A DNA stretch of 45,238 nucleotides, from positions 1 to 45,238 of the forward strand of contig JAACJQ010000266.1 in the NCBI GenBank assembly GCA_016879935.1, read 5' to 3'. Source of the stretch: Archangiaceae bacterium (GTDB lineage: Bacteria > Myxococcota > Myxococcia > Myxococcales > Myxococcaceae). The notes beneath the pieces were generated by a model. It was not told where the DNA came from. It did not search any database and was given only the letters and a program-made list of their open reading frames with translations. The position numbers were made by a program, and so were the translations under genes. Below, in pieces: positions 14,818-19,422 of this stretch (its first letter is position 1; the number at the start of each line of letters is the position of its first letter).

Positions 14818-17800
14818 TCAGTGGCTCGAGCACAGCGCGATGAGCTGCGCGCCCGACTGCTGAAGCACCTTCGGGCCCAGGCCCTTCACCTTGAGCAACG
14901 CCTGCTGAGAGGTCGGCCTCGCTTCGGCGACGGCGACGAGGGCCCGGTTCGTCAGCACCCGAAACGCGGACACCCGTCGCCGCTTCGCTTCACCCAGCCG
15001 CCACGCGCGGAGGGTCTCGACGAGACGGGCGCTCTCACCCGTCGACGGCAGCTCGACCGCGGGCGTGCGAGGCGCGCGTTTCGTTCGCCGTGCCCTCTTC
15101 TGCGGAGCGCGTCCCCGGCGTTCCGGGGCAGGCTGGCTCTTCGGCGCGAGCAGGGCTCGTTTCGGGTCTCCCTCGCCGATGACGTACAGCCGCTGGTACG
15201 GAATCGACTGGCCGTCCTTCTCGAACACGGCGTCGTCGAGGCGCAGCTGGCCCGCGCGCGCGAGGCCACGCACGAGCCGCTCGAACTGGGGCCGGGCCTC
15301 GGGCGCCTCACCCAGCACCTCTTTGCAGAGCCGGCCAATCGACTGCCCCGGCAGGGCCCTCAACCGCGCCACCACCTCGGACAACACGGTGACTTCGCCC
15401 ATCGTCGGCGGCTCGAAGGTGGCGGCGATGCAGCCTGACGGGTTGCAGACGTCACACTGCCCGCACCGCTCGAGCGTGTCGGTCTGGTCGCCGAAGTGCT
15501 TCACGAGCGACACCATTCGGCACTGCGCGCTCTCGGCGAAGCGGGCCATGAGGGCGAGCTGCTCCACGCGGAGTCGGCGCTGTGCCTCGTACGGCGCCTG
15601 CCAGCCGTCATGGCCCTTCGTGAGCTGGTCTTCGGTGACGCCGCGAACCCCGCCGTGAATCCACAACTTCTCGAGCGCCTTCTCGAAGTCGTCCATCGAG
15701 ATGCGGGTGCGACGGCGAACGCTCTCGGCGTCGTGTGGAGTGTCGCTCAGCGCGCGAGCCAGCTTCGCCAGCACCGGCACGTCGGGGTAGTCGCGCTCGA
15801 GGAAGAACTCGTGCGTCTTGCGGTCGACGAAGTGGTGCATGAGCACCGCGCGGGAGGGCTTCCCGTCACGGCCGGCGCGGCCAATCTCCTGGTAGTAGCC
15901 CTCGACGCTGCCGGGCAACGCGAGGTGCAGCACCGTGCGCACGTCGGCTTTGTCGACGCCCATGCCGAAGGCGACGGTGGCGACGATGACGTCGAGGTCG
16001 CCGTGGAGAAAGGCGGTCTGCGCCTCTTCACGCGCCTGGTTCGACATTCCCGCGTGGTACGGCGCGACGCGCAGGTGGCCCGAGAGCACTTCGGCGGTGG
16101 CTTCGGCGCTCTTGCGGGTGGCGGCGTAGACGATGGCGGGCGTGCGGCCCTTCTGGAGCAGCCACTCGAGCGCGCGCTCGGGCCGCTCCTTTGGCAACAC
16201 CTCGAGGGCTTCGATGGCGAGGTTGTGACGGCGAAAGCCGTGAATGAGCTGCCGCGCGCCGGGGCGAAGGCCGAGCTGCTTGACGATGTCGCGCTGCACG
16301 AGCGGCGTGGCAGTGGCGGTGAGCGCCATGACGGGGGCGGGCCGGAGCGACGGCAGGCGTTCTCCGAGCAGGCGGTAGTCGGGGCGAAAGTCGTGGCCCC
16401 ACTGCGAGATGCAGTGCGCTTCGTCGATGGCGATGAGTGACGGCGTGCGGCGGGCGAGCAGCTCGGGGAAGCCGGCGACGCCGAGACGCTCGGGCGCGAT
16501 GAAGAGGTAGTCGAGCTTTCCTTCGAGGTAGTCGGCGCAGACGCGGCGCGACTCGGTGCGCGGGCGGCCGGAGTGAATGCGCTCCGCCGCAAGCCCGAGC
16601 GACTGGAGCCGGGCGACCTGGTCTTCCATCAGCGCGATGAGCGGGCTGACGACGAGGGTGGTGCCACCGCGCGCGAGGCCGGGCAGTTGGTAGCAGAGCG
16701 ACTTGCCGGCGCCGGTGGGCATGACGAGCAGCACGTCGTGACCGGCAATGGAGGCGTCGCACGCTTCCTGTTGGTGCGGGCGGAAGGAGGCGTGACCGAA
16801 CTTCGCGAGCAGCGCGCGGGGGTCGCTGGTGGCGCCGCGTGGCGGGCGTTTGCTCGCGGCGCTGCCGTCGGCGTTCGGCACCGGCGCAGGACGGCTGTCG
16901 TCCTCAGAGGTGCGGGAGGTGATTCCGTTCGTCTGGCGGCGCAGGCCGAAGCCGCCCTCGGGCGTTGCTCGAGCGAGACCGGCCTGGACGTGGTCCGGTG
17001 ACGCAGTCGAGGAGGCGCCGATGAGACGCTCGGTGCTGCCGCTCGCAGCGAGTGGCTGTGATGAAGCTCCCGCCTGTGGCGATGCACTTGACGAACCGAG
17101 CAAGTGCTCGGTGCCGCCGTTCGCAGCGCTTCGCTGTGACGAAGCTCCCGCCTGTGACGAGCGCCCCGACGCAGTTGGCGAACCGAGGACGTCCTCGGTG
17201 CCGCCGTTCGCAGCGCTCCGCTGTGACGAAGCTCCTGTCTGTGTCGAGCGCGTTGGCGAACCGAGGAAGTGCTCGGTGCCGCCGTTCGTGGTGCTGCCCT
17301 GTGACGAAGCACCCGCAGGCGCCGAGCGCGACGCAGGTGGCGAAGGTCGGAGAACGTGCTCGGTGCCGCCGTTCGCGGTGCTGCGGCGTGACGGCGACGC
17401 AGCCGAAGCGTTCCCGAGGAAGTGCTCGGCCCCACCGTTCGCGGTGCTGCGCGGTGACGACGTTCCGCCCCCGCTGCCGCGCGAAGAAGTCGTCGCTGGC
17501 GAGCCTGCACGGAACGGCTCGGCACCCCGCGGTGACGAATTGCGAGGCGCGCCCGGCGGTCCGTCACGCCGCACCACTGGTGGAGGGTTGTTCCGGATTC
17601 TCCCGATGACGGCCTCGACGTACCGCTCGATGCCCGAAATGAACTCAGGCAGCGCGCCCTGCCCCTTCGCGATGCGCTGCAGCTTCGCTTCCCACGCGCC
17701 CGTCATGGCCGCGCTCTTCACCTCGGGGTCGACGACCTCGATGAGGCGAATGCCCTTCTCGGTCACCGCGAGCGCCTTGCCTTCACGCACCACGTACTCA

Positions 17801-19422: not shown

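Follow-up and report, generated by a model that had tools for sequence, protein, structure and literature searches.

Organization of the locus

The window, a stretch of 45,238 nucleotides (positions 1 to 45,238 of contig JAACJQ010000266.1) from an Archangiaceae bacterium, contains on its reverse strand a gene in which topoisomerase III (Topo III, TopB) and a RecQ helicase are joined (Table 1). The reading frame is unbroken over 1534 codons from a GTG at position 19422 to the stop codon at 14818, and this GTG is the first possible start, with an in-frame stop four codons upstream. The N terminus of the protein aligned with that of E. coli Topo III. Analysis with Pfam identified the domains Toprim (residues 4–133) and Topoisom_bac (153–594) in the first half and DEAD (881–1039), Helicase_C (1086–1187), RecQ_Zn_bind (1279–1327) and HRDC (1465–1530) in the second. 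This confirmed a fusion of TopB and RecQ in a single frame with the topoisomerase first, as an earlier note on this DNA had proposed. Breakage of the frame, which the note had raised as an objection, was not borne out, the frame being unbroken in relatives as well. An assembly artefact or a chance joining was ruled out because the same architecture is shared by dozens of independent genomes, complete ones included.

Two genes on the same strand, which overlap by 7 bp, end 48 bp upstream of the fusion. They encode a DUF4276 protein and an AAA_21 ATPase, a candidate HEC-01A/HEC-01B anti-phage pair that was not found by the fusion in relatives. More generally, none of the genes next to the fusion in the window turned up beside it in the relatives' loci compared, a pattern that fits a housekeeping gene standing alone better than part of a cassette. 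Further upstream lies a gene for a β-helix protein, in which the C-terminal repeat is followed by a cysteine-rich stretch, a hydrophobic segment and an RRRR-type end, together resembling a surface-sorting tail.

Table 1. Features of the TopB-RecQ fusion gene and the genes upstream of it, in positions of the window.
Feature	Position	Strand	Basis or remark
Whole fusion gene	14818..19422	-	GTG start, 1534 aa; architecture common to many relatives
TopB half, aa 1-612	17587..19422	-	Pfam Toprim and Topoisom_bac; TIGR01056 and PRK07726 above cut-off; E. coli Topo III structures
Catalytic Glu8	19399..19401	-	Conserved in all fusions reaching the residue
TOPRIM DAGRE motif, aa 104-108	19099..19113	-	Sequence and alignment
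Active-site Tyr317	18472..18474	-	Aligned with the tyrosine of ITYPRSD in E. coli Topo III; invariant in 28 fusions
Linker, aa 613-870 (258 aa), Ser/Ala/Gly/Thr/Pro-rich	16813..17586	-	Sequence, alignment, dN/dS
Six copies of a 53-nt repeat in the linker, spacing 78/87/78/87/66 nt	17018..17466	-	All spacings multiples of three
RecQ helicase half, aa 871-1534	14821..16812	-	Pfam, recQ_fam, E. coli RecQ structures, 1oyw model match
Walker A GAGKS, aa 904-908	16699..16713	-	Sequence and fusion alignment
DEAH box, aa 1000-1003	16414..16425	-	Sequence and fusion alignment
Four-cysteine zinc site, C1301, C1320, C1323, C1326	15445..15522	-	PF16124; kept in all fusions reaching the site
HRDC domain, aa 1465-1530	14833..15030	-	PF00570, E 8.2e-17
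DUF4276 gene	19471-20025	-	PADLOC HEC-01B
AAA_21 ATPase gene	20019-21314	-	PADLOC HEC-01A
β-helix protein gene	21406-23733	-	Tandem GGSATA-type repeat near the C terminus

The two enzyme halves

The first half scored above the cut-offs of both TIGR01056 topB (560.1 against 515.75) and PRK07726 (652.4 against 597), and among solved structures it matched E. coli Topo III with an E-value of about 6e-90. The catalytic residues Glu8, Asp104 and Tyr317 named in the earlier note are all at those positions. The TOPRIM motif of the window reads D-A-G-R-E rather than D-x-D-x-E, the E. coli enzyme having DPDRE; the DAGRE type is normal in this branch of TopB and is also found in Vagococcus and in other myxobacterial TopBs. 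An insertion of variable length, a possible decatenation loop, lies at the place aligned with that loop, shorter in the window than in E. coli and longer in Sorangium. The structure model obtained for this half was too weak for use.

The second half matched E. coli RecQ among solved structures (E 4.5e-89). It scored above the cut-off of recQ_fam (375.2 against 219.8) and below that of the RecQ equivalog TIGR01389 (462.9 bits against 640.2), so that by profile score the helicase is a RecQ family member outside this narrower subtype. The Walker A motif, DEAH box, motif VI (a QEIGRAGRDG stretch starting at residue 1178), cysteine cluster and HRDC domain that the note had listed were all present. 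Two Sorangium fusions and that of genome G005 gave no HRDC match, so the domain is not essential to the design. The structure model of this half was middling (pLDDT 64.6) and gave the E. coli RecQ core (1oyw) as its best match, with a Z-score of 22.2 over 310 residues and an rmsd of 5.8. Pfam gave no match to the winged-helix RQC domain in the fusion protein; residues 482–555 of this middling model show a helix-helix-helix-strand-strand unit with a block pLDDT mostly of 73–86.

The linker

The halves are separated by a linker that in the window is presumably disordered. Across the fusion alignment the linkers are of low complexity and always rich in S, A, G, P, T and R, and their length ranges from 24–29 residues in G005 and G010 up to 282 residues elsewhere. 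Since the repeat units within the window linker are spaced in multiples of three nucleotides, it can lengthen or shorten with the frame intact. The 53-nt unit was not found elsewhere in the window's genome, and the idea that it is a dispersed element was rejected, the unit being confined to the fusion gene. Five contigs of relatives (L073, L021, L017, L143 and L142) stop in or beside the repetitive linker, so that the fusion can appear divided in draft assemblies.

Distribution in Myxococcota

A scan of 84,980 species genomes using peptide patterns from the fusion protein, which reaches close relatives only, revealed the fusion in myxobacterial records, among them complete Sorangium cellulosum genomes, and on one contig outside them. 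This contig, filed as Lysobacterales, encodes a linker and RecQ part (L020:5389-6819) that shares 97% identity with the protein of the window, and is probably mis-binned or chimeric. A single frame holding both halves was read in MAGs of myxobacteria, in Sorangium and in whole genomes from several genera of the window's family, and also in the families f14, f18, f2 and f31 (f2, f11, f14, f18, f22 and f31 being GTDB-coded families). The plasmid and phage collections yielded no record in which a single place covered 80% of the query; as the linker reduces coverage, this test is a weak one.

Among 195 Myxococcota genomes surveyed, 92 contained a strong TopB match (E ≤ 1e-100), and about 81 of these had a fusion-length frame, namely 79 frames of at least 1216 residues together with G182 and G183, whose shorter frames are fusions cut by contig ends. 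Both halves were read or cross-matched in one frame in about 50 genomes, the remaining fusion counts resting on frame length. Of the other TopB-bearing genomes, four were cut before the second half and seven carried free TopBs of a different type. A strong TopB was absent from some genomes of the window's family, and Myxococcota also include genomes with a free TopB and a free RecQ, or with no TopB. The earlier note had expected a rare design; instead, in the window's family TopB usually takes the fused form, which also occurs beyond it, in the lineages given above.

Genomes that carry the fusion are usually without another strong TopB. Beside the fusion, no strong TopB is present in the window's genome (9.5 Mb, 95% complete), which has one separate RecQ and a second type IA topoisomerase that we take for TopA. 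Counting the fused one, many of the related genomes contain two to four RecQs.

Origin and selection

In a tree of the TopB half all fused sequences formed one clade (support 100/99), which also held two contig-cut sequences of uncertain state. The free TopBs of E. coli, Vagococcus, family f11 and genome G032 stood apart from this clade, and the long branches of several of them make their own branching order unsure. The RecQ half gave the same picture, with 21/21 fused sequences in one clade (99/98; 100% of bootstrap trees). The nearest sister of the fused RecQs was a free RecQ from G034 of family f22 (L121:666-2855), which is 58% identical, has its own start and an HRDC domain, and is possibly the pre-fusion form. 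As each half forms one clade, the simplest history would be a single fusion event, after which the gene was inherited, lost or transferred.

The Myxococcota loci showed no topB and recQ of the fused type side by side as two genes. Such a pair was also rejected as an intermediate in the four f11 genomes compared, where the free TopB is on one contig and the free RecQ on another. For G170, G145 and G079, loss or splitting of the fusion was not supported, the fused-type halves there stopping at contig edges. Beside its contig-cut fused-type RecQ half, G170 has an extra free TopB of unrelated type (L135:4096-6261, 722 residues, 32% identical).

In the alignment of 28 fusions the tested catalytic residues of both halves were invariant wherever the sequence reaches. 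Pairwise dN/dS over nine fusion pairs was mostly 0.08–0.22 for the TopB half, with one pair at 0.33, and 0.08–0.15 for the helicase core and 0.08–0.29 for the zinc and wing region. The linker gave 0.21–0.81, a value that is only indicative as this region aligns poorly. At the sequence level both halves were shown to be intact and under purifying selection, and neither showed decay of the kind that would go with the loss of activity which the note had considered for one half.

Comparison with known systems

Both halves match the solved structures of their E. coli homologs best or nearly best. The eukaryotic dissolvasome (Sgs1-Top3-Rmi1 and BLM-TopoIIIα-RMI) resembles the fusion in that a RecQ helicase is physically joined to Topo III; however, those complexes are non-covalent and include Rmi proteins, whereas the myxobacterial link is covalent. 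A covalent Topo III-RecQ chain also exists in yeast, but as a man-made one: Bennett and Wang reportedly engineered Top3-Sgs1 fusions in 2001. In Listeria, a recQ gene is followed on the same strand, 23 bp apart, by a Topo III gene, which gives two proteins in the order opposite to that of the fusion. Two Listeria records filed as plasmids, NZ_LR134400.1 (0.6 Mb) and NZ_CP030101.1 (2.9 Mb), look like pieces of chromosome; the first carries guaB, recQ and a Topo III gene.

The fusion sequences are present in public databases, and the question in the earlier note of whether the fusion is already catalogued has a divided answer. A PADLOC model, PDLC02865, fits it at full length, being a 1499-position profile that matches the fusions over both halves with 1491–2350 bits, under the name 'DpdF'. 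In contrast, no publication reporting such a fusion from nature was found in the literature searched, most subscription journals lying outside that literature. The parts of the fusion and their partnership are thus known, whereas no description of the covalent form was found.

Proposed function and alternatives

RecQ unwinds DNA in the 3'-5' direction and Topo III passes single strands. Harmon in 2003 and Suski and Marians in 2008 are said to have found that RecQ stimulates Topo III and that the pair resolves converging forks in vitro. Cooperation of the two enzymes in vitro is among the findings cited in PMC13244152. In E. coli the two are separate gene products, unlike the single frame of the fusion; no physical interaction between them has been observed and the genetic evidence is disputed, and a 2026 study proposed RecG as the partner (PMC13244152). 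The fusion matters because of this missing interaction. In it the physical union of RecQ and Topo III is encoded in one conserved frame.

The protein is probably a Topo III and a RecQ, each catalytically intact, that a flexible linker tethers to one another, the two jointly dissolving or decatenating intermediates. The ATP-driven RecQ would open the duplex and bare single strands, at converging forks, at catenated or hemicatenated junctions or at branch-migrating recombination intermediates. The tethered TopB would then cut one strand through Tyr317, pass the other through the gap and reseal the break, and intermediates would thus be decatenated or dissolved with no cut by a nuclease. The tether would stand in for the partner contacts of the eukaryotic Sgs1/BLM-Top3-Rmi complexes. 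We infer that the fusion remains one chain in the cell and that both halves act on the same substrate. For a tether of 24–258 residues, a hand estimate with the worm-like chain gave a local partner concentration of roughly 0.5 mM to tens of mM, which would be far above nanomolar cellular levels. As the linker is weakly constrained, it is suggested that selection keeps the tether, rather than a conserved interface within the linker.

On balance it also seems reasonably likely that the fusion is a natural single-chain RecQ-Topo III dissolvase which arose once in myxobacteria and has been maintained by selection, in many species usually as the only Topo III. If true, this would be covalent evidence of one functional RecQ-Topo III unit in a bacterial lineage. 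It is disputed whether the bacterial enzymes really work as such a unit in the way their eukaryotic counterparts do, and a lineage in which the intact halves are joined makes the question directly testable. Fusions with linkers down to 24 residues also offer single-chain proteins for structural work on helicase-topoisomerase coupling.

The alternative that survives best, although unlikely, is that the joining is an accident of co-expression, both activities being needed together while the halves work independently and the covalent link brings no mechanistic coupling. The length, variability and weak constraint of the linker are consistent with it, as is the frequent retention of other free RecQs in the host genomes. 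However, the halves are still joined across many genera and several families, the apparent splits are cuts at contig ends, and the genomes read yielded no version in which the halves had come apart again.

It is considerably less probable that two proteins are made, by internal initiation or by proteolysis of the linker, the fusion then being only a shared transcript. The linker is likely exposed, and those of L003, L008 and L060 contain an in-frame start with a weak Shine-Dalgarno-like stretch. In contrast, the window linker lacks ATG, and none of its possible starts has a stretch of this kind; the linkers of G005 and L015 have no start codon whatever, and linkers of down to 24 residues leave little room. 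A start of its own for the second half, as considered in the earlier note, was not seen as a conserved feature of the linker in the 28-fusion alignment. The tethered, jointly acting enzyme remains the preferred reading.

Reverse gyrase, or an analogue introducing positive supercoils, is also a type IA topoisomerase joined to an SF2 helicase-like ATPase in one chain, but this identity was rejected as scarcely credible: reverse gyrase has the helicase first, as the note had pointed out, with another helicase family and another activity, while the fusion has a RecQ with a zinc site and HRDC and scored 109.8 with the rgy model against a cut-off of 471.7. Identity with DpdF, the helicase of the Dpd 7-deazaguanine DNA modification system, was dismissed as equally implausible: PDLC02865 gave 1645 bits, but the NCBIfam DpdF model gave 213.3 against a cut-off of 550 and DpdA was not found in the window's genome. 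The name of PDLC02865 points to that system, unrelated to the fusion, and looks like a result of over-clustering because the profile itself spans TopB and RecQ. The PADLOC models of this name gave very high scores on TopB-RecQ fusions and on ordinary free RecQ alike, and DpdF calls made from them alone may therefore be false.
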